DNA of 44,444 nt from Bacteroidales bacterium (lineage in GTDB: Bacteria; Bacteroidota; Bacteroidia; Bacteroidales; P3), in NCBI GenBank assembly GCA_017483575.1, contig JAFUWF010000015.1:1-44444 (forward strand), given 5' to 3'. Below are positions 3,177 through 44,008 of this stretch, piece by piece. The first letter of the stretch is position 1. Each line of letters starts with the position of its first letter. Position numbers and translations under genes: made by a program. The notes beneath the pieces were generated by a model. The model ran no database searches, was not told where the DNA came from, and saw only the letters and a program-made list of their open reading frames with translations.

Positions 3177-3346
3177 CCCCTGTCAGACAGCCCCTTACTT
3201 CGACCCTTGTCATATAGTATGCATATAGTATACATATACTTCTCATATAGTATTCATATACTGTATATAAATACTATATGAGAAGTATATGTATACTATA
3301 TGTATACTATATAAGAACAGTCGAATAAGACACCCATTTGACCCCT
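3177..3346 (+). repeat. 11-bp-unit hairpin element, copy 1
   Basis: The core (3213-3311) is nine 11-bp units: four left units of type TATAGTATNCA, one central unit, and four right units that are their reverse complements. Two single mismatches separate the arms. The left flank starts CCCCTGTCAGACAG and contains TTCGACC. The right flank is AAGAACAGTCGAATAAGACA, then four variable bases and TTTGACCCCT. Three further copies are in the window. This element accounts for most of the 392-base gap between 3076 and 3469. Confidence 0.9.
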
Positions 3347-3468
3347 CTTTTTCGCGGTTGGATTCTTTGCATTTCTTTACACATGTATAATAGTGTTTTT
3401 TTCACCCCGAATCTTACATAGGGGGTGCTATTTTTTTTGTTTTTATGTGTTTTTTGGGCGTTTTTACA

Positions 3469-3756
3469 CTAGTCCTTGCGGCGGGGGTTCTTGGGGAACC
3501 AGCCGCGCTGGACGCGTTGGCGCTGCTGGAAGAGCTCGACGATGGACCAGAAGCAGGAGAAGCCGAGGACGCCGAGGAGGATGCTGAGGACGGTGCCGTC
3601 CACGAGGAGGGAGCCTATGCAGGCCGCCAGGCCCGCCAGGGCGAAGAGCGGCCAGCAACGGGTGCCGAGGTAGTACTCGGCCTTGATGACGATGGGATGG
3701 AAGGCCCCGATGATGAGGAAGGTGGCGAGGCCGATGATGAGTCCGTTGAGGTTCAT
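3469..3756 (-). CDS. DUF4491 family membrane protein
   Basis: The 95-residue protein matches DUF4491 throughout: an MNLNGLIIG start, FHPIVIKAEYYLGTRCWP, a second and third hydrophobic segment (about 35-50 and 56-70), WSIVELFQQRQRV and the final GWFPKNPRR. It is an inner-membrane protein of unknown function, common in Bacteroidales and Firmicutes. It sits 25 bases after the LtaS-like gene, so it is probably co-transcribed with it. The hairpin element copy 1 lies beyond its stop. Confidence 0.9.
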   Translation of the reverse strand: MNLNGLIIGLATFLIIGAFHPIVIKAEYYLGTRCWPLFALAGLAACIGSLLVDGTVLSILLGVLGFSCFWSIVELFQQRQRVQRGWFPKNPRRKD

Positions 3757-3781
3757 GAGTTGATGGGGGGATGGGTTATTG

Positions 3782-5827
3782 TTATTGTTGTTGCTGTTCG
3801 AGGTCGGAGGGGCGGATGACGAGGTGGTCTGTGGTCATGCGGAGCATGTAGGTCTGGACGATGGCCTTGAGGCGGCGGAGCATGCGGTCGCGGCGTTCGG
3901 CCTGGGCGGGGTCGGCGAGGAGGTTGCTGTGCTGGAGGGGGTCGAGAACGTAGTTGTAGAGCGCCGTGGGCTGCTGTCCGTCGAAGAGGAGGGTGTAGTC
4001 GCCCTCGATGTACTGGTAGACATCGTTGCTGTAGTTGACGGCCCAGGGGGTCTCGTCGGGGTTGAACATGTCCTTGCCGAAGGCGGCGTAGGGCTCGTTG
4101 TAGCCGAGGATGCGGAGGACGGTGGGCATGATGTCTATCTGCTGCATGACGCCGGGGAGGAGGCCCGTGGGGAGCTGACCGGAGGGGTCGTAGATGGCTA
4201 TGGGGATGGAGAAGAGGCCTGTGGAGGTCTGGCTCTCGGGGTATTGGAGCTGGTTGGTGTGGTCGGCGGTGAGGACGAAGAGGGTGTTCTGGAACCAGGG
4301 CTGCCGGCTGGCGGTCTGGAAGAAGCGGCGGAGGGCGTTGTCGGAGTACTGGATGGTGCGGTGGATGGGCAGGGGGCCGCCGGTGTAGACCTGCTCGTAG
4401 CGTTCGGGGATGCGGAAGGGATGGTGCGAGGAGGCGGAGAAGAAGCCCACCATGAAGGGCTCGGCGAGCTGTTCGGTGATGGCGTTGGCGGTGAACTGGA
4501 GGAACTCCTCGTCCCAGATGGCCCAGTGGCCGTCGAAGTCGTTGCGGCCGCCGGTGCGGGGGGCGTCGCAGTATTCGGAGAGGCCCAGGTAGTGCTGGAA
4601 GCCTGCGCTGCGAGCGAAGGCCTGGAAGCCCATGGAGGAGTTGGGGGCGCCGTGGAAGAAAGCCGAGGAGTAGCCGCGGCGGCCGAGGCAGTCGGCCAGG
4701 CCGCTGAGCTCGTTGAGCGACGAGGGGGTGAGGATGAAGGGCTCCACGAAGAAGGGCACGGAGGTGAGCGACGAGGGCATGGCGTCGATGCTCTTGCGGC
4801 CGTTGGCGAAGGTGTGCTGGAAGGTGAGGGAGTGGGCCAGAAGGGAGTCGAGGAAAGGAGTGTAGGAGGTATGAGGGGGGAGGTAGGAGGTAGGAGGTTG
4901 GAGGTCGGAGGTTGGAGGTGTGAGGTCGGAGTTATTATAGAAGCCGATGTATTCGCGGGAGAAGCTTTCGAGGATGAGGACGACGACGTTGCGCTGGCCG
5001 GAGAGGAGGGGCACGGTGTCGGCGGCGGAGGGTATGTGGACAGGGGAGTAGATGGCGGCGAGCTGCTCCTCGGGCATGTAGTGGGGGTCCTTGAAGGGGC
5101 GTTTGCCGATGGTGCGGATGAGGGAGAAGGGGGTGTTGAGGACGATGGAGGCCTGCTGGGGGGAGTGGACGTACTGGTTGGCGTTGGAGATGGTGATGGG
5201 GCGGGTGTCGCGTGTGAAGCCGCCGCGCATGGCGAAGACGGAGAAGGGGATGGCCACGAGGAGGGCCAGGGAGTTGACGAGGCAGTAGGCTTTGAGGTTT
5301 GAGGTTTGAGGTTTGAGGTCTGAGGCTTTAGGCTTGACATAGAGGAACCAGAGGGCGGCGATGAGGGCCAGGCCGAGGAGGACGAGGTACCAGTGGTTGA
5401 GCAGTTCGGTGAAGAAGATGCCGGCGAGGTTGCCCTCGTTGCTGAACTCGGAGAAGAAGGTGGCGGTGGTGCGGCGACCGGTGAACTGGGAGTAGACGGA
5501 GTCGACGAGGTTGAGGCAGAGGCCCAGGGAGTTCACCACCACGAAGACCCAGTGGCAGAGGATGTGCCACCAGGGGCGCTCCTTGAGGTGGAGGGGCAGG
5601 AGCATGAGGACAATCCAGAGGCAGTTGGTGTAGATGATGGCGGAGGTGTCGAACCGCAGGCTGCCGGCCAGGAGCTCGCCCATGGAGAGCTGGTCCCAGT
5701 CGACGGAGAAGAGGTTCCAGTTCTCGAGCACGAAGGCTACGCGGGTGACCATATAGAGGACATAGACGAGCACCAGGTTGAGGAGCACGGCCACGACATT
5801 GCTGTAAGGGGAGGATTTTATTTTCAT
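3782..5827 (-). CDS. LTA synthase family phosphoglycerol transferase (sulfatase fold)
   Basis: These 681 residues match the architecture of LtaS/OpgB-type enzymes. Five membrane spans (about 10-32, 65-80, 88-110, 145-163, 183-200) are followed by a periplasmic alkaline-phosphatase-like domain. Visible site residues are E287 in VLILESFS, the nucleophile S346 in GRKSIDAMPS, the W-x-I-W-D-E-E-F segment, SSHHPF, and the late metal ligands in LTADHTNQL. The family moves phosphoglycerol or phosphoethanolamine groups onto envelope glycans or lipids; the acceptor here is unknown. Two low-complexity inserts (K-A-S-D-L-K-P-Q-T-S around 168-178 and T-S-D-L-x-P-P-T-S around 300-320) are encoded by tandem DNA repeats and lie in loops. 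It follows the MBOAT gene by 59 bases. Confidence 0.9.
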   Translation of the reverse strand: MKIKSSPYSNVVAVLLNLVLVYVLYMVTRVAFVLENWNLFSVDWDQLSMGELLAGSLRFDTSAIIYTNCLWIVLMLLPLHLKERPWWHILCHWVFVVVNSLGLCLNLVDSVYSQFTGRRTTATFFSEFSNEGNLAGIFFTELLNHWYLVLLGLALIAALWFLYVKPKASDLKPQTSNLKAYCLVNSLALLVAIPFSVFAMRGGFTRDTRPITISNANQYVHSPQQASIVLNTPFSLIRTIGKRPFKDPHYMPEEQLAAIYSPVHIPSAADTVPLLSGQRNVVVLILESFSREYIGFYNNSDLTPPTSDLQPPTSYLPPHTSYTPFLDSLLAHSLTFQHTFANGRKSIDAMPSSLTSVPFFVEPFILTPSSLNELSGLADCLGRRGYSSAFFHGAPNSSMGFQAFARSAGFQHYLGLSEYCDAPRTGGRNDFDGHWAIWDEEFLQFTANAITEQLAEPFMVGFFSASSHHPFRIPERYEQVYTGGPLPIHRTIQYSDNALRRFFQTASRQPWFQNTLFVLTADHTNQLQYPESQTSTGLFSIPIAIYDPSGQLPTGLLPGVMQQIDIMPTVLRILGYNEPYAAFGKDMFNPDETPWAVNYSNDVYQYIEGDYTLLFDGQQPTALYNYVLDPLQHSNLLADPAQAERRDRMLRRLKAIVQTYMLRMTTDHLVIRPSDLEQQQQ
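4861..4934. repeat. GGAGGT(C/T)-type degenerate repeat inside the LtaS-like gene
   Basis: GGAGGTAGGAGGTTGGAGGTCGG-like units, split over variants, encode a T-S-D-L-x-P-P-T-S-Y-L-P-P insert next to the active-site strand. The frame is intact. Confidence 0.75.
5290..5334. repeat. TTTGAGG tandem repeat inside the LtaS-like gene
   Basis: Five to six 7-base units (TTTGAGG and variants) encode S-D-L-K-P-Q-T-S-N-L-K in the loop between the fourth and fifth membrane spans. Confidence 0.75.
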
Positions 5828-5833
5828 AATGCT

Positions 5834-5889
5834 ATAACTTTACGACTTTACGACTTTAAGACTTTACGACTTCACGACTTCACAACTTA
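5834..5889. repeat. ACTTTACG-type tandem repeat between MBOAT and LtaS-like genes
   Basis: Units of ACTTTACG and ACTTCACG fill the 59-base gap between the MBOAT stop (5887) and the next start (5827). They appear non-coding. Confidence 0.75.
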
Positions 5890-7806
5890 AAACTGGAAAT
5901 AGATGAATGGTTGGAGGTCGGCGGTGACAAACTGGTAGAGCACCACGGCCAGGAGGACGACGAAGGGGCCCATGAGCCAGAGGGGCATGGAGGCGAACCA
6001 AAGGCGATAGCGGCGCTTGAAGCGTGTGGGGAGCCAGTGGATGAGCATGCCGATGGCGAAGAGGATGAAGACGGGGGCGTAGTTGGCGAGGATGTCCGGT
6101 ATCTGTGCGAGGTTCCAGCGGGAGCCTATGCGCTCCACCATCTGGGAGGCGGTGTTCCAGGCGGCCTCGTTGGCTTCGGCGGGGTTGAGGTTGGAGCCGG
6201 AGCGGAAGAAGAGGCGCGTGAAGGAGATGAAGACAAAGGTGATGAGGACAGACCAGACGGTGGAGAGTCGGCCGTTGACAGTTGACAGTTTTTTGAAGCG
6301 GCTAAGGAGGAAGAGGAGGAGATAGCCGCCGAGGAGGACCTGGAGACAGAAGGCGAGGAGGTTGAGCAGGGGGGAGGTGAGAGGTGAGAGGTCGGAGGTG
6401 AGAAGGGTGAGTGTGAGGGCCAGGGAGGCGAGGGTGAGGAGGCGGGTGGTCCAGGAGCGGTCTTTCCACCACTTGTAGACCAGGATGCCGAGGCCGTTGA
6501 GGCCGCCCCAGGTGATGAAGTTGAACGACGAACCGTGCCACATGCCGCCGAGGAGCATGGTGTCCATGTTGTTGACGTTGGTGCCGAGGGTGCGACGATG
6601 CGAGGGGCGGAAGGCCAGCAGGAGCAGTACGACGGCGATGACAGCGCAGACTACGAGGGTGAACCAGAGGTTCTGCAGGCGGAAGGCGGCGACGAGGAGG
6701 ATGGCGGCGAGGACGAAATAGGAGGCGAAGCCTGCGGTGCGGTTGCCGCCGAGGGGTATGTAGAGGTAGTCGCGCAGCCAGCGCGAGAGCGACATGTGCC
6801 AGCGGCGCCAGAAGTCGGTGGGGTTCTGGGCCTTATAGGGCGAATTGAAGTTGACCGGCAGATAGAAGCCCATGAGCATGGCCACGCCGATGGCGATGTC
6901 GGTATAGCCGGAGAAGTCGGCGTAGACCTGGAGGGAATAGACCATGAGAGCGGAGAAGTTCTCGAAGGGGGTGTAGAGGAGGGGATTGTCGAAGACGCGG
7001 TCGACAAAGTTGACGGCCAGGTAGTCGCTCAGCACCAGTTTCTTGATGAGGCCGTTGCAGATCCAGAAGACGGCGATGCCGAACTGGCGCCGCGAGAGGA
7101 AGAAAGGCTTGTAGAGCTGCGGCACGAACTGGTCGGCACGCAGGATGGGGCCGGCGACGAGCTGGGGGAAGAAGGCGGTGTAGAAGCCGAAGTCGAGGAT
7201 GTTGGAGACATGGGGGATCTTGCGCTTGTAGACATCGACGATATAGCTGATGTTCTGGAAGGTGAAGAAGGAGATGCCGACAGGCAGGAGGATGACGGAG
7301 GCATCGAAGCGACTGGTGTGGAAGAGGTTGTTGGCCCAGAGGGCCAGGTGGTTGACAACCTGCAGGGGCTCGGAGCCTAGGTAGTGGCTGATGGTGGCGT
7401 TGTAGATGTCGGTGAAGAAGTAGGCATACTTGAAGTAGCAGAGGATGGCTAGGTTGACGACCACGCCGACGGTCATCAGGGTCTTGCGGCGGGCGTTGGA
7501 GGCGGTGTGGTCCATGCGGATGCCGAGCAGCCATCCCAGGAGGGTGGAGAAGACCAGCAGGAGGACGAAGAGGCCGGAGGTCTTGTAGTAGAACACCAGG
7601 CTGAAGGCGAAGAGGTAGCCGTTGCGGAGCACGCGACGCGTGGGGTTGAGGCTGCCGTCGGCCTGGCGACGCTGGCGCGAGACGATGAGGCCGAAGAAGA
7701 GGTAGATGATGAGGAAGAGCACCCAGAAGTGGATCTGCGTGAAGAGCAGCGGGTGGTCGTCGCTGAAAGCGAAGAGCGAGGCGAGGTATGTGAGGATATC
7801 GGACAA
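5887..7806 (-). CDS. MBOAT family O-acyltransferase (AlgI/DltB-like)
   Basis: This 639-residue polytopic inner-membrane protein has the MBOAT signatures: PVGISFFTFQNISYIVD (about 175-191), a conserved PQLVAGPI, DFSGYTDIAIG, NPTDFWRRWHMSL (about 328-340, H337) and GGMWHGSSFNF with the invariant H424. Members pass an acyl, usually acetyl, group across the membrane to a periplasmic SGNH partner. Two SGNH hydrolase genes lie directly upstream, 5 bases away, which supports this role. The only plausible start near the family N-terminus is a TTG at 7806. Two loops near the C-terminus contain residues from tandem DNA repeats (6273-6290, 6373-6415). Confidence 0.92.
   Translation of the reverse strand: MSDILTYLASLFAFSDDHPLLFTQIHFWVLFLIIYLFFGLIVSRQRRQADGSLNPTRRVLRNGYLFAFSLVFYYKTSGLFVLLLVFSTLLGWLLGIRMDHTASNARRKTLMTVGVVVNLAILCYFKYAYFFTDIYNATISHYLGSEPLQVVNHLALWANNLFHTSRFDASVILLPVGISFFTFQNISYIVDVYKRKIPHVSNILDFGFYTAFFPQLVAGPILRADQFVPQLYKPFFLSRRQFGIAVFWICNGLIKKLVLSDYLAVNFVDRVFDNPLLYTPFENFSALMVYSLQVYADFSGYTDIAIGVAMLMGFYLPVNFNSPYKAQNPTDFWRRWHMSLSRWLRDYLYIPLGGNRTAGFASYFVLAAILLVAAFRLQNLWFTLVVCAVIAVVLLLLAFRPSHRRTLGTNVNNMDTMLLGGMWHGSSFNFITWGGLNGLGILVYKWWKDRSWTTRLLTLASLALTLTLLTSDLSPLTSPLLNLLAFCLQVLLGGYLLLFLLSRFKKLSTVNGRLSTVWSVLITFVFISFTRLFFRSGSNLNPAEANEAAWNTASQMVERIGSRWNLAQIPDILANYAPVFILFAIGMLIHWLPTRFKRRYRLWFASMPLWLMGPFVVLLAVVLYQFVTADLQPFIYFQF
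6273..6415. repeat. Two short tandem repeats inside the MBOAT gene
   Basis: GTTGACA twice (about 6275-6288) and GAGGTGA/GGTCGGA units (6373-6415) encode the S-T-V-N-G-R-L-S-T-V and L-T-S-D-L-S-P-L-T-S loops. Both are in frame. The second word family also appears in the LtaS-like gene. Confidence 0.65.
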
Positions 7807-7811
7807 GGGAC

Positions 7812-9134
7812 TTACTGACGGCTAAGGGGGTTGAGGAGATCTAACGGATTGGTGAAGGAGTCGGGGGTGGCGGTGGAGGATGTTTTAGCGGTGGAATGCT
7901 TCTTGGAGTAGGAGGTGTAGGCGTCGAGGAGGGCGTTGTAGAAGAGGTTGCCGACGAGCTCGTAGCCCGCCTGGGTGAAGTGGACGCGGTCCTTCTGCGC
8001 CAGCTTGGCCTTGAACCATTTGTCCATGGACTTGAGGCCGCCCATGACCTCGAACTGGTCCCATACGGCGCCGTCGGTGTCGTCGGCCAGGCGATAGAAC
8101 ACCTCGCGGGCCAGGAGTCCGTTGCGGTTCACCTCGTAGCGGTTGCGGCGCTGGCGGCGGAAGCTGTCGTTGTTGGTGATGAAGACAAAGGCGCAGTCGG
8201 GGTTGATGACGCGGATGGAATCGATGAGTGCCAGATAGTTGGCGCGGAAGGCGGCGGTGTCGAAGTCCTTGGCCGAAGCGTCGTTGATGCCGATGCCGAA
8301 GACCACCATGTCGGGCCGCAGGAGGCGCAGGTCGCGCGCGAAGTTCTGGCATCGCAGGTAGTCGGGCACGGCGGCACCGTTGACACCGATGGAGTGGAAG
8401 GAGAATCCCGAGCGGCGGTTGTCGAGGCATAGGCCCGTGAGGGTGAAGCGTTCGCCGGGACGGCAGGGAAGGAGGACGGTGAAGGAGTCGGTGGGCTGGC
8501 TGAGGTTGAAGACGAAGCGCTCGGTGCGGGCGTCGGCATAGGAGGGATAGATGTTGCGTCCACCGATGCGCAGCTGCGGCACCACCTCCTCGTCGGAACG
8601 GCCGAAGACAATGACACGCGAGGTGGAGTAGTTGACGGAGGGTTCGTTCATCTCGATGGAGACCTCGGTGACGGTGTCGGCAGCGGTGATGGCTATGCCA
8701 CAGAGGCCCAGGGGATAGGTGTGCTCCTTATAGATGTTTCGCGTGAGGGTGACCTTCTGTGGGCAGTGCACGCGGTAGTCGCGCGGGTTGTTGCACTTGG
8801 CGGCGGCGGAATAGGGGAAGAGCATGCCGCGGCCGGCCACAAGGTTGGGGTAGGCATGCATGAGGTCGGTGCGGATGGTGTTGCTCATGGTGCCTGCCTG
8901 CACGTGGGAACCGCCGATGTGGACAATGTTGATGTTGCCCTGACGGGTGGTGACGACACGGCGCCACTTCTCGAAGAAGGCCTTCATGGCGGGCGAGACA
9001 TCGTTGTAGCGGAGGTCGTTGGCATCGTAGAAGATGAACTTGTGCTGGCGGGGAATCTCCACAGGCCGTGGCTGGGCGGTGCACCAGACGGCCAGGAGCA
9101 GGAGGGTCGACAGCAGGGCTAGGTGTTTTTTCAT
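7812..9134 (-). CDS. SGNH/GDSL hydrolase, second of a pair
   Basis: The 440-residue product has an N-terminal signal (about 1-20, cleavage near CTA-QP) and should be periplasmic. Block I is HIGGSHVQAG with S76 as the likely nucleophile (GGSH rather than GDSH). The oxyanion Asn is in VVFGIGINDAS, and the Asp/His pair is in DRVHFTQAGYELVG. It overlaps the upstream SGNH gene by 4 bases (ATGA at 9134-9131) and is followed by the MBOAT gene. It probably accepts acyl groups from the MBOAT protein and places them on a glycan, or removes them. The last 30 residues are rich in Ser/Thr. Confidence 0.88.
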   Translation of the reverse strand: MKKHLALLSTLLLLAVWCTAQPRPVEIPRQHKFIFYDANDLRYNDVSPAMKAFFEKWRRVVTTRQGNINIVHIGGSHVQAGTMSNTIRTDLMHAYPNLVAGRGMLFPYSAAAKCNNPRDYRVHCPQKVTLTRNIYKEHTYPLGLCGIAITAADTVTEVSIEMNEPSVNYSTSRVIVFGRSDEEVVPQLRIGGRNIYPSYADARTERFVFNLSQPTDSFTVLLPCRPGERFTLTGLCLDNRRSGFSFHSIGVNGAAVPDYLRCQNFARDLRLLRPDMVVFGIGINDASAKDFDTAAFRANYLALIDSIRVINPDCAFVFITNNDSFRRQRRNRYEVNRNGLLAREVFYRLADDTDGAVWDQFEVMGGLKSMDKWFKAKLAQKDRVHFTQAGYELVGNLFYNALLDAYTSYSKKHSTAKTSSTATPDSFTNPLDLLNPLSRQ

Positions 9135-15075: not shown

Positions 15076-15813
15076 TTATTTTTGGTTCATCATTATCTCG
15101 TTCAGTCCTATCAATGTCAGCTGCGGCACATGCTCCCACCCCTTGGCTCCCAGGGCCATGAGGCGCTCGGCGTCGCCGCCGGTGAGCAACACCCGCAGGG
15201 CCGGGGCTTTCTCCTTGTAGAGGGCCACATAGCCTGCCAGGGCCAGGAGCGTGGCTCCCAGCGTGCCGGCAAGGATGCTCTCCTCCGTCGTACGTCCCAG
15301 CACGGGGGCCTTCTCCACCCCCTCGATGTCTATTAACGGCAATTTCGCCGTAAAAGTATGCAAGGCCTGCAAATTCATTTTCAGGCCCGGCATGATGGCG
15401 CCCCCGTGGTAGGTGCCCTGGGCATCCACGAAGTCCACGGTGATGCAGGTGCCGGTGTCTATCACCAGGCAGGCCTCGCCGGGGTGCAGTCCCGCGGCGC
15501 CGCAGGCGTCGGCCACGCGGTCGGCCCCCAACGTCTGGGGGGTCTTGTAGTCCAGCCGGATGGGCAGTGGCGTGGAGGAATCGAAAAGCGAATACGGAAC
15601 ACCGAGCCTCTCCAGCACGGGCTGTGCCTTGGCAAGGTCGCCGCTGGCGCACACCAGCACGTCGGTGAAGGGGGCATGCATCGCGGCTTGCCGCTGACTG
15701 AGGAGTGTGTCGGTGAAGAGCGCGTCCAGCGAGCGTCCGCTCGCCACCAGCTCCTTCCCTTCGAAGGCGGCCCACTTCACAGCTGTGTTTCCTATGTCTA
15801 TCGCCAGTCTCAT
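15076..15813 (-). CDS. coaX: Type III pantothenate kinase
   Basis: CoaX phosphorylates pantothenate, the first step of coenzyme A synthesis. It belongs to the ASKHA fold and is not feedback-inhibited by CoA. The ATG at 15813 gives the family start MRLAIDIGNTAVKW with the nucleotide-binding DIGNT loop. Further signatures are TPQTLGADRVADACGA, the VIDTGTCITVDFVD strand and GGAIMPGLKMN. The length is 245 residues, as usual. A 19-base sequence identical to the end of the 240-379 element lies inside the gene (15693-15711) and encodes D-T-L-L-S-Q in a variable loop. Repeats lie on both sides of the gene. Confidence 0.94.
   Translation of the reverse strand: MRLAIDIGNTAVKWAAFEGKELVASGRSLDALFTDTLLSQRQAAMHAPFTDVLVCASGDLAKAQPVLERLGVPYSLFDSSTPLPIRLDYKTPQTLGADRVADACGAAGLHPGEACLVIDTGTCITVDFVDAQGTYHGGAIMPGLKMNLQALHTFTAKLPLIDIEGVEKAPVLGRTTEESILAGTLGATLLALAGYVALYKEKAPALRVLLTGGDAERLMALGAKGWEHVPQLTLIGLNEIMMNQK
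15693..15711. repeat. 19-bp match to the MITE-like element end, inside coaX
   Basis: GCTGACTGAGGAGTGTGTC is identical to 361-379. It is in frame and adds no stop. Confidence 0.7.
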
Positions 15814-16620: not shown

Positions 16621-16746
16621 TCATATACTTCTCATATACTTCCCATATAGTATTCATATACTGTATATAAATACTATATGAGAAGTATATGTATACTATA
16701 TGTATACTATATAAGAACAGTCGAATAAGACACCTCTTTGACCCTT
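16621..16746 (+). repeat. 11-bp-unit hairpin element, copy 2
   Basis: The core (16624-16711) has eight 11-bp units, three left and four right around a central unit. The left arm has lost one unit and one unit is altered (TATACTTCCCA). The conserved right flank AAGAACAGTCGAATAAGACA is present, but the left flank is replaced. It lies between the divergent pth and kbl promoters. Confidence 0.9.
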
Positions 16747-16884: not shown

Positions 16885-18066
16885 ATGTACACTAAGTTTC
16901 AACAGCATTTGCAGAAAGAGCTGGCCGATATCGAGGCCGCCGGTCTTTACAAACACGAACGTATCATCGAGAGCCCCCAGGGTGCCGAGATCATGGTGAA
17001 GGGCAAGAAGTGCCTCAACTTCTGCGCCAACAACTACCTTGGCCTGGCCGACAACCCCGAGCTCATCGAGGCCGCCAAGAAGGGCATGGATGCCCGCGGC
17101 TACGGCATGGCCAGCGTCCGCTTCATCTGCGGTTGCCAGGACCTGCACAAGCAGCTTGAGAAGAAGATTGCCGAGTTCTTCGGCACCGAGGATACCATCC
17201 TCTACGCCGCTTGCTTCGACGCCAACGGCGGTGTCTTCGAGCCCCTGCTGACCGAAGAGGACGCCATCATCAGCGATGCCCTCAACCACGCCTCCATCAT
17301 CGACGGCGTCCGTCTCTGCAAGGCCCAGCGCTACCGCTACGCCAATGCCGACATGGCCGACCTCGAGGAGCAGCTCAAGGCCGCCCAGAAGAACCGCTTC
17401 CGCATCATCGTTACCGACGGTGTCTTCTCCATGGACGGCAACGTCTGCCCGCTGGACAAGATCTACGAGCTGGCCAACAAGTACGATGCTATGGTGATGG
17501 TGGACGAGAGCCACTCCGCCGGTGTGGTCGGCAAGACCGGTCGCGGAGTTACCGAGCGCTACAACCTCCGCGGCAAAATCGAGATCCTTACCGGTACCCT
17601 CGGCAAGGCCTTCGGCGGCGCCATGGGCGGTTTCACCACCGGCAAGAAGGAAATCATCGACATGCTGCGTCAGCGTAGCCGTCCCTACCTCTTCTCCAAC
17701 TCCATGGCTCCCGGCCTCGTTGCTGCCGGTATCCGCATGTTCGAGATGATGAGCGAGACCAACGCTCTGCAGGACAAGCTGCACGAGAACACCGACTACT
17801 TCCTGCGCCGCATGAAGGAGGAGGGCTTCGACTGCAAGCCTTCGGAGAGCGCCATCTGCGCCGTCATGATCTACGACGCCGCCAAGAGCCAGCAGTATGC
17901 CGCCAAGATGCAGGAAGAAGGCATCTTCGTCACCGGCTTCTACTACCCCGTTGTCCCGAAGGGCCAGGCCCGTATCCGCGTGCAGATCAGCGCCGCCCAC
18001 GAGCACGAGCACCTCGACAAGTGCATCGAGGCCTTCAAGAAAGTCCGCAAGGAAATCGAGGGCTGA
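16885..18066 (+). CDS. kbl: Glycine C-acetyltransferase (2-amino-3-ketobutyrate CoA ligase)
   Basis: Kbl splits 2-amino-3-ketobutyrate with CoA into glycine and acetyl-CoA, completing threonine breakdown in the cytoplasm. It is a fold-type I PLP enzyme of the alpha-oxoamine synthase family. The 393 residues match the usual 395-398. The N-terminus (FQQHLQKELADIEAAGLYK) is typical of Kbl rather than of BioF or HemA. The PLP lysine is K241 in TGTLGKAFGGAMGG, with the D207/H210 pair in VDESHS. No tdh gene is nearby. The stop codon lies inside a 49-base inverted repeat shared with the convergent fabD. Confidence 0.95.
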   Translation: MYTKFQQHLQKELADIEAAGLYKHERIIESPQGAEIMVKGKKCLNFCANNYLGLADNPELIEAAKKGMDARGYGMASVRFICGCQDLHKQLEKKIAEFFGTEDTILYAACFDANGGVFEPLLTEEDAIISDALNHASIIDGVRLCKAQRYRYANADMADLEEQLKAAQKNRFRIIVTDGVFSMDGNVCPLDKIYELANKYDAMVMVDESHSAGVVGKTGRGVTERYNLRGKIEILTGTLGKAFGGAMGGFTTGKKEIIDMLRQRSRPYLFSNSMAPGLVAAGIRMFEMMSETNALQDKLHENTDYFLRRMKEEGFDCKPSESAICAVMIYDAAKSQQYAAKMQEEGIFVTGFYYPVVPKGQARIRVQISAAHEHEHLDKCIEAFKKVRKEIEG

Positions 18067-18220
18067 ACGGCTGATTCTTTTTCGTCGGCGAATTTCGCGA
18101 ATTAAGCGAATTGCCGCAAAACAAAATTGCCCGGATCTGTAATGGATTCGGGCAATTTTTTACGTAATAATAATTCGCTCAATTCGCGAAATCCGCCGAC
18201 GAAAAAGAATCAGCCGTTCA
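18064..18220. repeat. Long inverted repeat containing both stop codons of kbl and fabD
   Basis: The 49 bases from 18064 pair with 18172-18220 with two differences. Each arm begins TGAACGGCTGATTCTTTTTC, in which TGA is the stop codon of kbl on one strand and of fabD on the other. A terminator hairpin is nested at the centre. Confidence 0.9.
18124..18160. terminator. Bidirectional terminator between kbl and fabD
   Basis: AAATTGCCCGGATC pairs with GATTCGGGCAATTT at 13 of 14 positions, with A and T runs outside, so it can serve both convergent genes. Confidence 0.8.
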
Positions 18221-31525: not shown

Positions 31526-31695
31526 CCCCTGTCAGACAGCCACTAAATTCGACCCTTGTCATATAGTATGCATATAGTATACATATACTTCTCATATAGT
31601 ATTCATATACGGTATATGAATACTATATGAGAAGTATATGTATACTATATGCATACTATATAAGAACAGTCGAATAAGACAGCAGTTTGACCCCT
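31526..31695 (+). repeat. 11-bp-unit hairpin element, copy 3 (perfect)
   Basis: The core (31562-31660) has nine units, and all four arm pairs match exactly around a centre of TATACGGTATA, giving 49-bp arms. Flanks on both sides match copy 1. It lies between the divergent M1 peptidase and small lipoprotein genes. The rest of the 400-base gap holds C- and G-rich low-complexity stretches. Confidence 0.92.
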
Positions 31696-37915: not shown

Positions 37916-37938
37916 ACTTTTAGTAGCACTTTGCGGTG

Positions 37939-37969: not shown

Positions 37970-38073
37970 ATATTTTTTCAAAAATATTCTTTTCCCTGAT
38001 CGCAACTAATCTTCCCTTGGAAGGCAATAATCCCATAGGTGCTGCGTTATTATATCCGAAATCTCATTATTAT

Positions 38074-39639
38074 ATGAAAAGGTATATCGTCCTCCTGATG
38101 CTCCTGCTGCCGCTGGCGGCCATGGGGCAGAACAAGAAGAGCACGCCGCTGTTCGAGCGCGCCGTGGAGAAGGGCATCGTCGGCCAGTACGAGGAGGCCG
38201 AGAAGCTGCTCCTCAAGGCCCTCGACATCGACCCCACCTATGCCGAAGCCTGGCTCGTGCTGGGCAACCAGCGGATGGCCATGGAACGCTATGCCGACGC
38301 CATCGACAGCTACGAGCACTGCCAGAACCTCGACGACCCGCACTGGCAAAAGGAGGTCAGGGAACAACTCCGCCTCGCCCGCTGGCGCCTGCATGCCGTC
38401 CAGAACCCCGTGCCCTTCCGTCCCATCAACCTCGGCAACAACGTCAACACCCCCGACGACGAGTACCTGCCGGCCCTCACGGCGGACTACCGCATGCTGG
38501 TCTTCACGCGCCGCTCGCCGCGCAACGCACAGACCCTCCGCGGGCTGGACATGGAGGAGGACTTCTATTACTCCGACTACGACACCATGGAGCTGAACTG
38601 GGGCCCGGCCCACCGCATGCCCGAACCCCTCAACAGCCACGGCAACGAAGGGGCCCAGACCATCTCGCACGACGGCCGCGTGGTCATCTTCACCGCCTGT
38701 GGCCGCGACCCCCATGGCGGATGCGACATCTACATGAGTGTGCGCCAGGGTGGCCGCTGGGGCAAGCCGCGCAGCCTCGGCGCGCCCGTCAACTCGCCCT
38801 TCTGGGAGTCGTTCCCCTCGCTCTCCATCGACGGCTACACGCTCTATTTCGCCTCCAACCGCCCCGGCGGCTACGGCGGCACCGACATCTGGTACTGCAC
38901 CCTCGAGGAGGGCCGCTGGAGCGAGCCCCGCAACCTCGGTCCCGCGGTGAACACCCGTGGCAACGAGACAGCCCCCTACATCCACTTCGACGACAAGACG
39001 CTCTACTTCGCCTCCGACGGCCACACCGGCATGGGCGGCATGGACCTCTACATGGCCAAGCGCACGAGCGACAGCACCTTCGGGCAAGTGGAGAACCTGG
39101 GCTACCCCATCAACACCGCCGGCGAAGAGAACAACCTCATCGTGGCCCCCGACGGCCGCACGGCCATCTTCTCCTCCGACCGCTTCGGCGGCTACGGGCG
39201 GCAGGACCTCTACTCCTTCGTCATGCCCGCCCCCGCACGTCCGGAGCGCATCACCTTCATCGACCCCGTCGTCCAGGCCGAGAACCTCCTCTCCCTCGGC
39301 GACACCGTCACGCTCCACAACATCCACTTCCTCACCGCCAGCGCCGAGCTCTACGAGGCCTCCAAGGCCGGACTGGACCGCCTGGCCGAGGCCCTGAAGC
39401 GCCATCCGCGCCTGCGCCTCGAGGTGGGCGGCCACACCGATGCCGTGGGCAAGGACGAGGACAACATGCTCCTCAGCGAACGCCGCGCCAAGGCCGTCTA
39501 CGACTACCTCGTGGAACGCGGCGTCGCGGCCGACCGCCTCACCTACCGCGGCTACGGCGAGACACGTCCCGTGGCCACCAACGACACCCCCGAAGGCCGC
39601 GCACAGAACCGCCGCACCACCCTCACACCGCTTAAATAA
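38074..39639 (+). CDS. PorE-like protein: TPR, PD40 beta-propeller and OmpA domain
   Basis: The ATG at 38074 gives 521 residues with a signal peptide (about 1-19, AMG-QNK). Two TPR motifs (about 25-95: YEEAEKLLLKALDIDPTYAEAW, split) are followed by a WD40-like PD40 propeller (about 115-385) with repeated S-x-D-G-x-T-L-Y-F-A-S strands. An OmpA peptidoglycan-binding domain closes the protein (about 400-515: LEVGGHTDAVGKDEDNMLLSERRAKAV). This is the order of PorE, which anchors the T9SS ring to peptidoglycan. The carboxypeptidase-regulatory domain between propeller and OmpA domain in P. gingivalis PorE is not visible. Confidence 0.88.
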   Translation: MKRYIVLLMLLLPLAAMGQNKKSTPLFERAVEKGIVGQYEEAEKLLLKALDIDPTYAEAWLVLGNQRMAMERYADAIDSYEHCQNLDDPHWQKEVREQLRLARWRLHAVQNPVPFRPINLGNNVNTPDDEYLPALTADYRMLVFTRRSPRNAQTLRGLDMEEDFYYSDYDTMELNWGPAHRMPEPLNSHGNEGAQTISHDGRVVIFTACGRDPHGGCDIYMSVRQGGRWGKPRSLGAPVNSPFWESFPSLSIDGYTLYFASNRPGGYGGTDIWYCTLEEGRWSEPRNLGPAVNTRGNETAPYIHFDDKTLYFASDGHTGMGGMDLYMAKRTSDSTFGQVENLGYPINTAGEENNLIVAPDGRTAIFSSDRFGGYGRQDLYSFVMPAPARPERITFIDPVVQAENLLSLGDTVTLHNIHFLTASAELYEASKAGLDRLAEALKRHPRLRLEVGGHTDAVGKDEDNMLLSERRAKAVYDYLVERGVAADRLTYRGYGETRPVATNDTPEGRAQNRRTTLTPLK

Positions 39640-39650
39640 AATATTTTTCG

Positions 39651-39658
39651 TATATTTG
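39651..39658 (+). promoter_or_regulatory. Promoter -7 box of trpS
   Basis: TATATTTG, 24 bases before the ATG at 39683, starting 11 bases after the stop of the preceding gene. Confidence 0.55.
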
Positions 39659-39682
39659 CAACCATAAAACAACAACGACAAT

Positions 39683-40681
39683 ATGAGTAAAGATATAGTT
39701 TGCAGTGGCATACGCCCCACCGGCAACCTCCACTTGGGCAATTATTTCGGCGCCCTGAAGAATTTCGTCCGCATGCAGGACGAGTACGACTGCTTCTTCT
39801 TCATCGCCGACTACCATTCGCTGACCACCCACCCCACCCCCGGCAGCATCTACAACGACGCCCGCGCCATCCTCGTACAGTACCTCGCCTCCGGCCTCGA
39901 CCCCGAGAAGGCCACCATCTATTTCCAGAGCGACCTCCCGGAGACCATCGAGCTCTACCTCTTTTTCAACATGAACGCCTACCTCGGCGAGCTCGAACGC
40001 GTCACCTCCTTCAAGGACAAGGTGCGCCAGAACCCCAACAACGTCAACGCCGGCCTGCTGACCTACCCCACCCTCATGGCCGCCGACATCCTCATCCACA
40101 AGGCCACCAAGGTGCCCGTGGGCAAGGACCAGGAGCAGCATCTGGAGATGACGCGCACCTTCGCCCAGCGCTTCAACAACATGTACCACTCCGAGGTCTT
40201 CCCCCTGCCGCAGGCCATGGGCTCCAACGGCCAGCTGGTGAAGATCCCCGCCCTCAACGGCAGCGGCAAGATGGGCAAGAGCGAAGGCGAGGCCAGCACC
40301 ATCTTCCTCACCGACGAGCCCTCCGTCATCCGCAAGAAAATCATGAAGGCCAAGTCCGACTCCGGCCCCACCGAGATGAACCAGCAGAAGCCCGAGGAGA
40401 TCGAGAACCTCTTCGCGCTCCTCCGCGCCGTCTCCACGCCCGACACCGTCGAGTACTTCGACGACCTCTACAACCGCTGCCAGATACGCTACGGCGACCT
40501 CAAGAAGCAACTGGCCGAGGACATGGTAGCCTTCGTCGAGCCCCTGCGCCAGCGCATCCTCGAAATCGGCTCCGACGACGAAGCCCTCCGCCGCATCATC
40601 GACCGCGGCAAGGAGAAGGCCCACGACAGCGCCGCCCGCACCCTCAGCGAGGTGCGCCACGTCATCGGCTACCGCAACTAG
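39683..40681 (+). CDS. trpS: Tryptophan-tRNA ligase
   Basis: TrpS joins tryptophan to its tRNA. The 332 residues match the short bacterial form. The HIGH motif is HLGN in RPTGNLHLGNYFG; the KMSKS motif is KMGKS in NGSGKMGKSEGEA. Other family features are LVQYLASGLDPEKATIYFQSD, TYPTLMAADIL and VPVGKDQEQHLEMTR. It is followed by a strong terminator. Confidence 0.97.
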   Translation: MSKDIVCSGIRPTGNLHLGNYFGALKNFVRMQDEYDCFFFIADYHSLTTHPTPGSIYNDARAILVQYLASGLDPEKATIYFQSDLPETIELYLFFNMNAYLGELERVTSFKDKVRQNPNNVNAGLLTYPTLMAADILIHKATKVPVGKDQEQHLEMTRTFAQRFNNMYHSEVFPLPQAMGSNGQLVKIPALNGSGKMGKSEGEASTIFLTDEPSVIRKKIMKAKSDSGPTEMNQQKPEEIENLFALLRAVSTPDTVEYFDDLYNRCQIRYGDLKKQLAEDMVAFVEPLRQRILEIGSDDEALRRIIDRGKEKAHDSAARTLSEVRHVIGYRN

Positions 40682-40701
40682 CCCTGAGGGGAATAAAACA
40701 A

Positions 40702-40731
40702 AAAAGCCGTCCAGCTGGACGGCTTTTTTTG
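40702..40731 (+). terminator. Terminator of trpS
   Basis: AAGCCGTCCAG pairs perfectly with CTGGACGGCTT, followed by a run of T, 20 bases after the stop. A runs upstream would allow use by the convergent small lipoprotein gene as well. Confidence 0.85.
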
Positions 40732-40745
40732 TGATTGGTCTTTAC

Positions 40746-40970
40746 TTACTGAGCAACGACTTCTTCAACAGCCTCAGTGGCGGCCTCGGTGAGGGCATCC
40801 TCGAGGTTCTCGGTGGCCTCGGTGGCCTCCTCGGTCATCTCGGTGGCAGCGGCCTCAACCTGCTCCATATCGGCAGCGAGGGTGTCAGCGGTCTCAGCGT
40901 TGTTGTTGCCGCAAGCGGCGAAACCAAACATACCGGCGATTGCAAATGCAAAAAATACTTTCTTCATCAT
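40746..40970 (-). CDS. Small acidic lipoprotein
   Basis: The 74 residues start MMKKVFFAFAIAGMFGFAAC, a lipoprotein signal with Cys at about 20. The mature part is very acidic and helical, built from A-T-E-x-x-T-E-E repeats (TEMTEEATEATENLEDALTEAATEAVEE, split), and ends AQ. It has no aromatic residue after the Cys. It may be an envelope spacer or an ion-binding lipoprotein; I do not recognise a family. It has its own promoter. Confidence 0.7.
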   Translation of the reverse strand: MMKKVFFAFAIAGMFGFAACGNNNAETADTLAADMEQVEAAATEMTEEATEATENLEDALTEAATEAVEEVVAQ

Positions 40971-41039
40971 TTTAATTTTTAAATGGTTTATTATTATGTT
41001 TCTTAGTTTTTTATCCTTTATTTTTTCAAATTCGAGGTG

Positions 41040-41047
41040 CAAAAGTA
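41040..41047 (-). promoter_or_regulatory. Promoter -7 box of the small acidic lipoprotein gene
   Basis: TACTTTTG on the minus strand, with TTTA (one base off TTTG) at the 19-base spacing. The leader is about 65 bases. Confidence 0.55.
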
Positions 41048-41204
41048 CTACTTATTTCCGAAATGTTAAAAAATAAAGTGCTAATAATTCCTAAAATCAA
41101 ACTAACAACCTATATATCATTATCTTATACGACGATTCAAAAAGGGCTTTTATCGGCTTTCCGGACCGTAAAACACTTTTTTTCTCCTCTGTGGAGGCAA
41201 AAAT

Positions 41205-41237
41205 CAATGCCCCGTCGTTGCATACGGCGGGGCATTG
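41205..41237 (-). terminator. Terminator of rnfA
   Basis: CAATGCCCCGTC and its near-perfect partner GGCGGGGCATTG form a stem 23 bases after the rnfA stop, with a T-rich stretch beyond it on the minus strand. Confidence 0.75.
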
Positions 41238-41260
41238 TTTTCTGTTTTTCAACCGCGTCC

Positions 41261-41851
41261 TTACGGCAGGGGAACCAGGTTGTTGAAGCCCATGAAGGCC
41301 ATGGCCAGGATACCGGCGGTGACCAACGCGATGGGCACACCCTTCATACCCTTGGGCGTACCGGTGAGCTCCAGCTGCTCGCGGATGCCGGCGAAGATGA
41401 CCAGTGCCAGGGTGAAGCCCACGGCAATGGAGGCGGAGTAGATGACGCTCTCCAGGAAGTTCATGTTCTTCTGGATAACCAGGATGGCCACACCGAGCAC
41501 GGCGCAGTTGGTGGTAATCAGGGGCAGGAAGACTCCCAGGGCCTGATACAGCGCCGGAGCAATCTTCTTCAGCACGATTTCAACCATCTGCACCAGGGCC
41601 GCAATCACAAGGATATAGGCGATGGTCTGCAGGTACTCCAGGTTCAGCGGCACCAGTACATACTGCATGATGAGGTAGGTCACCATCGTGGCCAGCAACA
41701 TCACAAACAGCACGGCGCCGCCCATACCGAGCGAACTCTTCACATCCTTCGACACACCCAGGAACGGGCAGATACCGAGGAACTGAGCCAACACAACGTT
41801 GTTCACGAAGATGGCTCCGATAATCAGCGCGAATATTGAGATTCCTGTCAT
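41261..41851 (-). CDS. rnfA: Rnf complex subunit A
   Basis: RnfA is one of the two inner-membrane subunits that bind the shared iron-sulfur cluster in the Rnf ferredoxin:NAD+ oxidoreductase, which pumps Na+ or H+. The 196 residues have six membrane spans. The signatures FVNNVVLAQFLGICPFLGVSK (Cys near 28) and LPLITTNCAVLGVAI (second Cys) are present, and the end FMGFNNLVPLP is typical of RnfA rather than NqrE. No rnfB, C, D, G or E gene is in the window. It has its own promoter and terminator. Confidence 0.93.
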   Translation of the reverse strand: MTGISIFALIIGAIFVNNVVLAQFLGICPFLGVSKDVKSSLGMGGAVLFVMLLATMVTYLIMQYVLVPLNLEYLQTIAYILVIAALVQMVEIVLKKIAPALYQALGVFLPLITTNCAVLGVAILVIQKNMNFLESVIYSASIAVGFTLALVIFAGIREQLELTGTPKGMKGVPIALVTAGILAMAFMGFNNLVPLP

Positions 41852-41884
41852 AGTTCAGTTGTTTTTTATCCTAAAATCAAAATG

Positions 41885-41892
41885 CAAAAATA
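41885..41892 (-). promoter_or_regulatory. Promoter -7 box of rnfA
   Basis: TATTTTTG on the minus strand, with TTTG 20 bases further upstream. It shows that rnfA can be transcribed without the OadA-like gene. Confidence 0.6.
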
Positions 41893-41919
41893 CACACTTT
41901 TTCCGAACCCACCAAATTA

Positions 41920-41953
41920 TTTTTCATTTTTCATTTTTCATTTTTCACTTTCA
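41920..41953. repeat. TTTTTCA tandem repeat after the OadA-like gene
   Basis: Four 7-base units of TTTTTCA lie in the gap between the OadA-like stop (41956) and the rnfA promoter. Confidence 0.75.
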
Positions 41954-41955
41954 GC

Positions 41956-43725
41956 CTATTCCAACCATCCCAGGACGTCGCCTTTCTTCACCATCTGGCC
42001 TTGTTTGGCGCAGGTGTCCACCACTTTGCCGCCCTTCAGGGCCGTCAGAGGCATCAGCGCATACGGGGCTTCAATGTGGGCCAGCGCGGCACCCTCTTTC
42101 ACCTCCGTGCCGGGGGCCGGAGGGGTGCTCTGGTCGTCGAAGTTGACCTCCCACAGCAAACGGCCTGTGGCCGTGGCCACCATGGGCGTGGCACCTGGGT
42201 GCTTCTGCGAGATGTAGTTCAGCGCGCCGGTGGCATCTGCGCTTTCCGCTTTACTCTTTCCGCTTTCCGCTCTCAGCTGCGCCACCTCCTTGTTGAAACG
42301 CTCCTTGGCAAGTCCGCTCTTGTAGTCGCGGTACTGACGGTCGTGCATGGCAAGCTCGAAGAGCTCCTCGTCGTCCTCGCCGCGGTCCCATCCGTTCTGC
42401 TCCATCTCCTTGATGTACTCCGGCAGGGCGTCGGGATAGGCGTCCTGCGGCACGCCGGTGTAGAACTCCATGCCCTGGGCCTTGGCCAACTCCACGATCT
42501 CTGGGGCCAACGGACCGGGCAACTTGCCGGCACGGCCGAGGATCATGCTCCACGAGTCCTTGTCGATCTGGCTGAAACGGGCCTTGCCCTGGGCCATCGA
42601 GAGCAGGTTCATGACGGCGATGTTCTTAGTGTACTGGCTGAAGGGCGTCACCAACGGAGGGTAGCCCAGCATGGGCCAGATGTGCTCCACCTCCTGGAAC
42701 AGCTGCACCGTGAGCTCCTCGAAGCTCACCTCCGGCTTGCCGTTCTTCTTCAGGGCCATGTTGATGGCACCGTGCACGCCGCGCAGGTCGCTCATCATCG
42801 AACCCATCATGCCGCCCGGCAGGCCGCAGCCCACCAGCAACGAGGTGCTCACACGGTTGCCAGGATTGATGTACAGACCCAGGAAGTCGTCGATGAACTC
42901 CTGCGTCAGCTTGCGGGCCTCCATGTAGGCATCCATGTTGATGTCCTTCACCAGGAATCCGGCGTCCTTGAGCATGGCCTGCACCGAGATGACATCGGGG
43001 TGCACCATGCCCCACGACAGGGGCTCCATGGCGCAGTCTATGACGTCGGCACCCGCCTGGGCCACCATCAACGTCGAGGCCATCGAAAGGCCGGGACCCG
43101 TGTGGCCGTGGTACTGCACCACGATGTGCGGGTACTTGGTCTTGATCTCCTTCACCAGACGGCCCAGCGTGGCGGGACGGCCCACACCGGCCATGTCCTT
43201 CAGGCATATCTCGTCGGCACCGAACTCCACCAGCTTGTCCACAATGCCCATGTAGTACTCCACCGTGTGCACCGGCGAGTGCGTGATGCTCAGGGCCGCC
43301 TGGCTGACCATGCCGGCCTCCTTGGCATACTTCACACTGAACTCCAGATTGCGCGGGTCGTTCAGTCCACAGAACGAACGCATGATGTCGACGCCCTGCG
43401 CCTTCTTCACCTTCGGCATCAGCTGGCGCACGTCTTTCGGCACACCGTACATGCGCAAACCGTTCAGGGCGCGCTCCAACATGTGGGTCTGGATACCGGC
43501 CTTGTTGAAGGCCTTGGTCCAGGCACGGACGGCTTTGTTCGGATTCTCGCCGTACATCAGGTTCACCTGCTCGAAGGCACCGCCGTTGGTCTCTATGCGG
43601 TCGAAGCAACCCATATCCACAATCACCGGAGCAATCTTCTCCAATTGGTCCACTCGCGGTTGGTATTTTCCGCTGCTTTGCCACATGTCGCGGTATACCA
43701 GACTAAATTTTATCTCTTTTGACAT
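41956..43725 (-). CDS. oadA: Carboxyltransferase of the OadA/PycB type with a degenerate biotinyl domain
   Basis: The ATG at 43725 gives 589 residues. The carboxyltransferase TIM barrel (about 1-300) shows FSLVYRDMWQSSG with the metal-binding Asp, the catalytic Lys in CLKDMAG and the YHGHTGPG metal histidines. The PycB/OadA conserved domain follows (about 310-480). A biotinyl-like domain closes the protein (about 515-589). Where the biotinylated lysine (E-A-M-K-M) is expected the sequence is HIEAPYALMPL, with no lysine. It might work with a separate biotin carrier, or be a lyase acting otherwise. An S-G-K-S-K-A-E-S linker is encoded by a repeat. Confidence 0.88.
   Translation of the reverse strand: MSKEIKFSLVYRDMWQSSGKYQPRVDQLEKIAPVIVDMGCFDRIETNGGAFEQVNLMYGENPNKAVRAWTKAFNKAGIQTHMLERALNGLRMYGVPKDVRQLMPKVKKAQGVDIMRSFCGLNDPRNLEFSVKYAKEAGMVSQAALSITHSPVHTVEYYMGIVDKLVEFGADEICLKDMAGVGRPATLGRLVKEIKTKYPHIVVQYHGHTGPGLSMASTLMVAQAGADVIDCAMEPLSWGMVHPDVISVQAMLKDAGFLVKDINMDAYMEARKLTQEFIDDFLGLYINPGNRVSTSLLVGCGLPGGMMGSMMSDLRGVHGAINMALKKNGKPEVSFEELTVQLFQEVEHIWPMLGYPPLVTPFSQYTKNIAVMNLLSMAQGKARFSQIDKDSWSMILGRAGKLPGPLAPEIVELAKAQGMEFYTGVPQDAYPDALPEYIKEMEQNGWDRGEDDEELFELAMHDRQYRDYKSGLAKERFNKEVAQLRAESGKSKAESADATGALNYISQKHPGATPMVATATGRLLWEVNFDDQSTPPAPGTEVKEGAALAHIEAPYALMPLTALKGGKVVDTCAKQGQMVKKGDVLGWLE
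42241..42275. repeat. GAAAGCGGAAAG-type repeat inside the OadA-like gene
   Basis: On the minus strand GCGGAAAGCGGAAAGAGTAA-like units encode R-A-E-S-G-K-S-K-A-E-S, the linker between the PycB domain and the biotinyl-like domain. Confidence 0.75.
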
Positions 43726-43784
43726 AGTGTTAATCCTTTGATACAAAAAACATTACCCCAATATATAAATAATTGGGGATAATG

Positions 43785-43792
43785 CAAATATA
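43785..43792 (-). promoter_or_regulatory. Promoter -7 box of the OadA-like gene
   Basis: TATATTTG on the minus strand, 60 bases before the ATG. A small hairpin (CCCCAAT/ATTGGGG, 43757-43779) lies in the leader. Confidence 0.6.
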
Positions 43793-43880
43793 CAACTTTT
43801 TTTCTTTTCCGCCATCTTTTTCGAAAAAAAACTTCCTCCCCCACCCCTCCTCTTCCACCCCCAACCAACCCCCAACCAAC

Positions 43881-44008
43881 AGGGGTCAAAGAGGTGTCTT
43901 ATTCGACTGTTCTTATATAGTATACATATAGTATACATATACTTCTCATATAGTATTTATATACAGTATATGAATACTATATGAGAAGTATATGTATACT
44001 ATATGACA
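43881..44008 (-). repeat. 11-bp-unit hairpin element, copy 4 (inverted)
   Basis: This copy is in the opposite orientation. The core (43916-44003) has eight units, lacking the outermost left unit, as in copy 2. The conserved flank AAGAACAGTCGAATAAGACA (here reversed) and TTTGACCCCT are present; the left flank is only partly similar to copies 1 and 3. It lies between the OadA-like gene and the right MITE-like element. Confidence 0.9.

Follow-up and report, generated by a model that had tools for sequence, protein, structure and literature searches.

A dispersed family of palindromic 11-nt repeat arrays shares intergenic places between two Bacteroidales species and differs between them in sequence

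The 44,444-nt stretch of DNA analyzed here (positions 1 to 44,444 of contig JAFUWF010000015.1 from the Bacteroidales bacterium assembly GCA_017483575.1, hereafter the window) contains four near-perfect palindromes, E1 to E4, that are composed of 11-nt units and are located between genes. These palindromes raise the question of what kind of element they represent, and of how copies at separate places come to share one design. A sequence-only reading of the window had proposed a repeat family with several possible roles, an interpretation that is partly supported by the analysis below. The main result lies beyond what that reading could see, namely that a sister species carries the same family at many of the same positions with sequence that is specific to that species.

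All four palindromes are present where the sequence-only reading had located them and with the inverted design that it described (Table 1). An unbiased repeat scan of the window returned E1 to E4 as its first direct family (four copies of 181 nt) and also placed the copy at 43.9 kb in inverted pairs with other copies, while Tandem Repeats Finder (TRF) reported a period of 11 on both arms of each copy. Specifically, each copy has left-arm units of the TATAGTATNCA or TATACTTCTCA type, a centre such as TATACTGTATA, and the reverse complements of these units on the right arm. The proposed unit make-up was right in its repeated 11-nt units and needed correction for E2 at 16.6 kb, where two left units are TATACTTCTCA and TATACTTCCCA rather than TATAGTATNCA; moreover, no arm in the window is without a TATACTTCTCA-type unit. 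All four copies share the flank AAGAACAGTCGAATAAGACA followed by TTTGACCC, and the longer left flank (TGTCAGACAG ... TTCGACC) occurs only next to E1 (3.2 kb) and E3 (31.5 kb), both as had been claimed. E1 and E3 have the outer ends TTCGAC and GTCGAA, whereas in E2 and E4 the left one has diverged. E1 coincides with inverted repeat I19, the arms of which (3199-3261 and 3263-3325) are 90% complementary. The 181-nt copy has a predicted fold of -77.8 kcal/mol versus -24.65 (standard deviation 3.26) for 200 shuffles (z = -16.3).

Table 1. Positions of the palindromes and of features discussed with them. Positions without a contig name refer to the window; C numbers are contigs, and L numbers loci, of the assemblies named in the text.
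Feature	Position	Strand	Remark
E1, palindrome of about ten 11-nt units	3199..3326, core 3211-3312	+	imperfect outer inverted ends TTCGAC...GTCGAA
E1 left flank	3178..3198	+	CTGTCAGACAG type, same type at E3
E1 right flank	3327..3350	+	AAGACACCCATTTGACCCC
E2, about nine units	16622..16726	+	left end diverged
E3 (copy L005), about ten units	31548..31675, core 31560-31661	+	
E3 left flank	31527..31547	+	CTGTCAGACAG type
E4, about nine units	43902..44018	-	inverted relative to E1-E3
Alignment breaks near elements	31764; C26:110956; C25:84528; C5:65095		
Y1 transposase genes (Y1_Tnp), G000	C22:51954; C11:38828; C5:136924		L103; L104; L105
GC-richer arrays, G000	C11:9106-9183; C5:168195-168302; C14:14850-14934; and others		
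GC-richer arrays, G007			L189, L192, L193, L199-L201

The family extends well beyond the window, which the sequence-only reading had named as one of the points on which its proposal would stand or fall. The assembly that contains the window (G000) is a draft metagenome-assembled genome (MAG) of 1.96 Mb in 30 contigs that is about 78% complete. A 20-nt flank motif gave 56 matches in this assembly at up to three mismatches versus none for the reversed control, which together with the stability of the fold indicates that the palindromes are not the result of chance. A 21-nt end motif gave 71 matches; once palindromes read on both strands had been merged, 69 loci carried an end motif. Adding L101 at the start of contig C25 and C5:236201 yields 71 places, or about 70 copies, given that a few of these places are at contig ends where two ends could represent one element. 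Ten units were parsed in 54/69 readings and nine in 11/69, so array length is nearly fixed, with an element size of about 100-130 nt.

In the contiguous contigs of G000 (1.19 Mb, 61% of the assembly) there are 41 arrays, and all 37 that are testable by having called genes on both sides are intergenic, with the other four being located at contig ends. A separate neighbour tally of the 69 readings, in which L044 and L051 each count twice, found both neighbours for 64; L013 and L029 overlap weak gene calls. The 37 arrays are distributed over 17 tandem, 16 divergent and 4 convergent gene pairs, settings that contribute 61, 28 and 11% of intergenic bases, respectively. Divergent pairs are therefore somewhat in excess (p = 0.045) and convergent pairs are not enriched. 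Several copies start directly after a stop codon. A role as a replication or partition site, which had been among the proposals, is rejected since the orientation of copies follows neither GC skew (16:9 versus 9:6, Fisher p = 1) nor local gene strand (19:6 versus 8:7, p = 0.17). Contig C26 of G000 (213 kb) carries one element only, with about seven expected (Poisson p = 0.005).

A covariance model built from 47 copies was run with stricter filters on G000 and 60 relatives, with up to 49 candidates per genome being scored. This gave at least 49 matches in G000, at least 48 in the sister species G007, at least six in G026 and at least one in G014, with none among the candidates scored in the other 57 genomes; under these settings the counts are minimum values, and weakly matching members in other genomes may have escaped the search. 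In G007 the 48 matches reduce to about 30 places, some matched on a single strand and others on both; 30 loci were fetched, and a few more are present in G007 contigs. The MAG RUG12038 has one degenerate copy.

The positions of these elements in G007, which is also a draft MAG with many copies at contig ends, were then compared with those in G000. Among the 30 G007 loci, 17 are shared (a G000 array being present within 450 nt), four lack an element in G000 and nine are unplaced, a shared count that is biased upward by including other G000 element loci as placement targets in addition to the contiguous 61% of the assembly. When only the contiguous 1.19 Mb is considered, 13/16 G007 loci are shared, at 13 different G000 elements (L181 set aside), versus an expected sharing, by our own rates, of about 3% over all positions or 11% when only the longer gaps between genes count (p = 1e-10). 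L181, one of the four loci scored as lacking an element, is the other end of the L174/L012 locus and is itself probably shared. Within the window, the orthologous place of E2 (L178 in G007) is also occupied, by a flipped element of the G007 type.

The cores at these shared places are species-specific. Mean core identity, from 400 random pairs per comparison, is 0.896 within G000 and 0.928 within G007 versus 0.735 between the two (maximum 0.778), and the nearest neighbour of all 85 cores (63 and 22 loci) is in its own genome. Thus paralogues are more alike than orthologues at shared loci, the pattern expected of concerted evolution. Furthermore, among the 22 readable G007 cores, 13 have exactly the same 116 nt, seven of these lying inside contigs and six at contig ends. 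Eight of these identical cores occupy loci that are also occupied in G000 (four inside contigs), one occurs where G000 lacks an element and four are unplaced; the flanks of the eight differ between the species by 8-23%. That identical cores occupy loci where G000 has its own type points to sequence having been copied from locus to locus once the two species had separated. The core is also flipped at 6/11 scored shared loci (the near-symmetric L002/L169 set aside), with relative orientation being conserved at L012/L181. The conserved flank and the core of L035/L139 are separated on the right by 25 nt in both species, in line with a single insertion point, and one-sided offsets are close at other shared loci (46 and 43, 36 and 33 nt). 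Taken together, the shared places, the own-genome nearest cores and the flips indicate concerted evolution in place and not only a fresh transposon burst. As a separate observation, 7- to 8-nt minisatellites (such as GAGTGAT and GAGTTAAG) adjoin many G007 elements (L155, L158, L164, L166, L170, L171 and L172).

Neighbouring sequences are exchanged at some of these places. For example, G007 locus L176 is flanked on one side by a neighbour of G000 copy L011 and on the other by a neighbour of L036, and L158 joins C14:7470 to C14:25399. When the internal alignment breaks in 20 G007 stretches were read by eye, 4/9 were within 200 nt of a G000 element, against a rough base rate by our own figure of 8% (p = 0.004); a different gene after the break was checked at C5:65095 only. 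This association of elements with alignment breaks is suggestive only, as contigs misjoined at repeats could mimic it. An insertion sequence (IS) has its two ends at the end of contig C19 (L100:1538-1906) and at the start of contig C13 (L027:1-135). It probably interrupts the centre of one palindrome copy, with a 4-nt duplication, ATAA, and its protein reads as IS5-like. Overall, these elements constitute a non-coding, intergenic palindromic repeat family with shared loci, uniform species-specific cores, flips and neighbour exchange, subject to the quality of the MAGs.

The arms of the hairpin were analyzed in an alignment of 47 of the 51 distinct ten-unit readings (both L044 readings, the second reading of L051, and L098 were left out). 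Arm complementarity is 92.5% of cells over 60 pairs in the 47 copies. Double-changed arm cells number 25 versus 14.0 (standard deviation 2.1) in shuffles, and arm alleles change together. Mismatches between arms are G.T in 49 cases and A.C in 50 (53 readings); away from the centre G.T mismatches are commoner, but derive from few shared variants. With double changes only partly above shuffles and G.T equal to A.C, the matching arms are explicable by correction at the DNA level as well as by selection on RNA. Three copies (L016, L021 and L089) have a centre that runs opposite to the remainder of the element. Across the family the outer flanks are C-rich on the left and G-rich on the right and retain the 11-nt period within 60 nt, with lag 11 being the highest among lags 4-16 on both sides. 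The outer ends TTCGAC and GTCGAA pair, as do the outer blocks, but beyond the core conservation is lost gradually. Growth from inside, with old arms being pushed outward and decaying, is unsupported as left and right outer flanks of the same copy are no more complementary than flanks taken from separate copies (permutation p = 0.74-0.97 for G000, six tests; 0.47 and 0.71 for G007). A point in favour of such growth despite these tests is that two arrays of a GC-richer type, described below, carry AT-type units in the loop.

We favour the explanation that the copies are homogenised in place by recombination between them, provoked by the palindrome, and would give it somewhat less than an even chance; the recombination step is what we infer from the sequences. 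Copies would exchange sequence in place by homologous recombination, mostly as gene conversion with an occasional crossover. The likely trigger would be the palindrome itself, which would form hairpins during replication that are cut or that stall the fork, with another copy then serving as the template for repair of the broken or stalled palindrome. The inverted-repeat nature of the two arms would allow a donor to be copied in either orientation. The element would mainly be self-maintaining repeat DNA that is tolerated between genes, and rearrangements at copies would be a side effect. Several observations weigh against this explanation. Arm pairs with double changes number only 3/60, below the shuffle mean of 4.1, and the palindromes are about 100-130 bp as compared with 246-480 bp in the E. 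coli work as far as PMC4245961 was available. At some shared loci the one-sided offsets disagree (51 versus 61 and 54 versus 32 nt), and a 36-N gap to the left of L035/L139 hides the flank-core distance on that side. As both genomes are draft MAGs, a single element may be represented by two contig ends, and some of the joins may have arisen by mistake during assembly. No element is present in G000 at three of the G007 loci, and some G000 copies (L005 and L019) appear to be absent in G007, which indicates that gain and loss also happen by some route. Specifically, G007 has a plain terminator at the L019 place and nothing at the L005 (E3) place, where its locus L188 is without an element and the alignment ends 103 nt from E3. 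Finally, independent insertion into preferred sites is compatible with the data.

Such site-selective transposition is the main rival. Here a miniature inverted-repeat transposable element (MITE)-like element, mobilized by a transposase with strong site preference, would have hit the same intergenic hotspots independently in both species by each species' own variants, an account that we consider rather unlikely. The MITE had been among the roles proposed from the sequence, and the distribution of a short, non-coding, intergenic, multi-copy element fits it. The exclusively intergenic location of testable copies (37/37), the imperfect outer inverted ends, the flipped orientation at about half of the shared loci and the presence/absence differences between species would all be expected of it. 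So would the absence of the L014 copy in G010, G012 and G022, where both neighbour genes are present without an element and a terminator-like hairpin is seen by eye after the stop codon. Against this stands a search for a mover and its ends. In 1.19 of 1.96 Mb, a right-end matrix matched at arrays in 42/43 cases, the remaining one being a collapsed copy, with no matches for the reversed matrix; the weaker left-end matrix had 6/85 matches away from arrays versus 4 in its control. No autonomous parent element with the same ends was found in these 1.19 Mb, the rest having been searched with short end motifs only. The gradual fading of conservation outside the core is a further point against transposition, and no clear target-site duplication is present at the empty sites found, where the flanks are too diverged to define one. 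Three Y1 transposase genes are present in G000, and within about 1.5 kb on each side of them there is no copy, with five element motifs matching only low-complexity TATA at one locus; the closest approach is that of copy L021, about 2.2 kb away from the C5:136924 gene. Partnership of the element with a Y1 or REP-associated tyrosine transposase (RAYT), where REP denotes repetitive extragenic palindromic sequences, is thus unsupported for the three Y1 genes found, no copies flanking them. Each of these genes is accompanied by different GC-rich repeats, which have the appearance of separate REP families. A virus-borne origin was likewise rejected, the exact end motifs of both species being absent from viral contigs.

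Two further explanations assign the array a function. The units could be sites for a sequence-specific protein (a nucleoid protein, a repressor or a chromosome organiser), one per helical turn, that co-evolves with the sites in each species. The preference for an exact 11-nt spacing of TATA across genomes (see below), the nearly fixed array length and the excess between divergent genes fit this idea, but selection on binding sites does not yield 13 cores identical over 116 nt, and no candidate protein was identified. In addition, an 11-nt period drifts along the array because B-DNA turns at about 10.5 bp. We regard protein sites as improbable. An RNA element, in which a long transcript hairpin would end or stabilise transcripts, seems to us more improbable still. 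It is favoured by the extremely stable fold, by the several copies that begin right after a stop codon, and by 11 bp being one turn of A-form double-stranded RNA, which is also close to one turn of DNA. Its weakness is that the equal numbers of G.T and A.C mismatches leave selection on one strand, and with it the structured RNA that had been proposed, unsupported, and that there are no Rfam matches at gathering thresholds within the window. The lack of enrichment of convergent pairs (4/37 against 11% of intergenic bases) and the modest surplus of divergent ones are also unlike REPs as described (PMC3733652).

The 11-nt period itself recurs beyond this family. TATA repeated four times at a spacing of 11 is present in 14/61 genomes (12/37 in the genus plus G041 and G056 of other families), versus 5/61 at spacing 10, where most of the matches shown are low-complexity, and 1/61 at spacing 12. 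The ATAT phase, a reversed control, adds 4, 2 and 3 genomes for spacings 11, 10 and 12, giving 18, 7 and 4. The other seven bases of the unit differ by species. G000 and G007 also have a second, GC-richer class of inverted 11-nt arrays with arms of CTCCCTACCAA and TTGGTAGGGAG and often the centre CCATGGTGGG (Table 1), two members of which are those with an AT-type unit in the loop, and a hairpin of inverted 11-mers with unrelated sequence is present in G041. The common factor of these arrays is unit length and not sequence, and an exact 11-nt period in arrays of unrelated sequence constitutes a question of its own. TATA every 11 nt was also observed in other species of the genus, at L141 (G014), L211 (G025), L212 (G017) and L216 (G001); by eye these are mostly direct arrays, with L141, L211 and L216 being direct only.

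One tentative extension is that the arrays, in which each helical turn holds one unit, make up a class of enzyme-free, selfish repeats; these would be broken or stalled on account of being palindromes and repaired from a copy in either orientation, so that variants sweep occupied sites. A similarly doubtful addition is that such a class would comprise several sequence families side by side (TATA; CTCCCTACCAA/TTGGTAGGGAG), with one in another family of the order (G041). If homogenisation in place is true, then about seventy unlinked chromosomal sites evolve in concert, through copying into places that already hold an element. It would be a natural case of palindrome-driven gene conversion in which intergenic repeats stay uniform without a transposase, and would explain assembly breaks, and perhaps gene-order breaks, at element sites in this group of uncultured Bacteroidales.

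The window contains other repeats as well. A 22-nt tandem array (CTGAGGAGTGTGTCAGGGAAGG, eight copies), a unit twice 11 nt, is present at 366-539, with relatives near 15693 and at 44045-44095. A separate long inverted repeat with 49-nt arms that are 96% complementary and 59 nt apart is located at 18064-18220. The contig ends (1-167 and 44278-44444) are inverted repeats of each other with 95% complementarity, so the contig ends in repeated sequence, which presumably is coding sequence for a type IX secretion system (T9SS) C-terminal domain, given its resemblance.

The proposal that this is an undescribed Bacteroidota repeat has held up, as literature on Bacteroidales at the level of titles and abstracts, with most subscription journals outside, contained no description of the element or of inverted 11-nt arrays. 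Judged by its sequence, the element appears to be a dispersed bacterial palindromic repeat of a variant not previously described in the literature searched. From the sections of PMC4596501 that were available, the closest known element is the BrickBuilt MITE of Porphyromonas gingivalis, which resembles ours in being a dispersed and strictly intergenic element of a member of the Bacteroidales, with short tandem units, predicted long stem-loops, loci that are shared between strains, assembly gaps at copies and, according to its authors, no Rfam match. It differs in unit, layout and evolution. Specifically, BrickBuilt is made of direct repeats of 23 nt, which vary in number from 1 to 22.8, with a leader and a tail of up to about 300 nt, whereas the units here are 11 nt on two inverted arms and the length is nearly fixed. 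In BrickBuilt the copies follow the strain tree, whereas here they are homogenised across loci. Kinship by sequence was rejected, local unit similarity not being above shuffles (34/500 as high).

REPs and bacterial interspersed mosaic elements (BIMEs) with their RAYTs are similar in providing many dispersed intergenic palindromes per genome (PMC3733652, in part). According to the same partial source, REPs are 20-40 bp, mostly have a GTAG or CGTC tag and are found mainly between unidirectional and convergent genes. In contrast, the elements here are 100-130 bp and AT-rich with some excess between divergent genes, and neither tag is present in the 47-copy consensus. Higgins et al., in 1988, reportedly raised gene conversion for REPs, to go by the title. 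Prokaryotic MITEs share with the present family their short, non-coding, intergenic nature, inverted ends and many copies (PMC10969869, as far as its text was accessible), and differ in that here no related autonomous element was found in 61% of the assembly and no clear target duplications were seen. Neither ‘concerted’ nor ‘gene conversion’ occurs in the searchable text of that review. Finally, palindromes in E. coli are hotspots of breaks and rearrangements (PMC4245961, in the part available), where a palindrome forms a replication hairpin that is repaired by recombination, the same course that we propose here. The palindromes in that work were single ones of 246-480 bp, whereas the present elements would represent a natural, dispersed family that overwrites itself.

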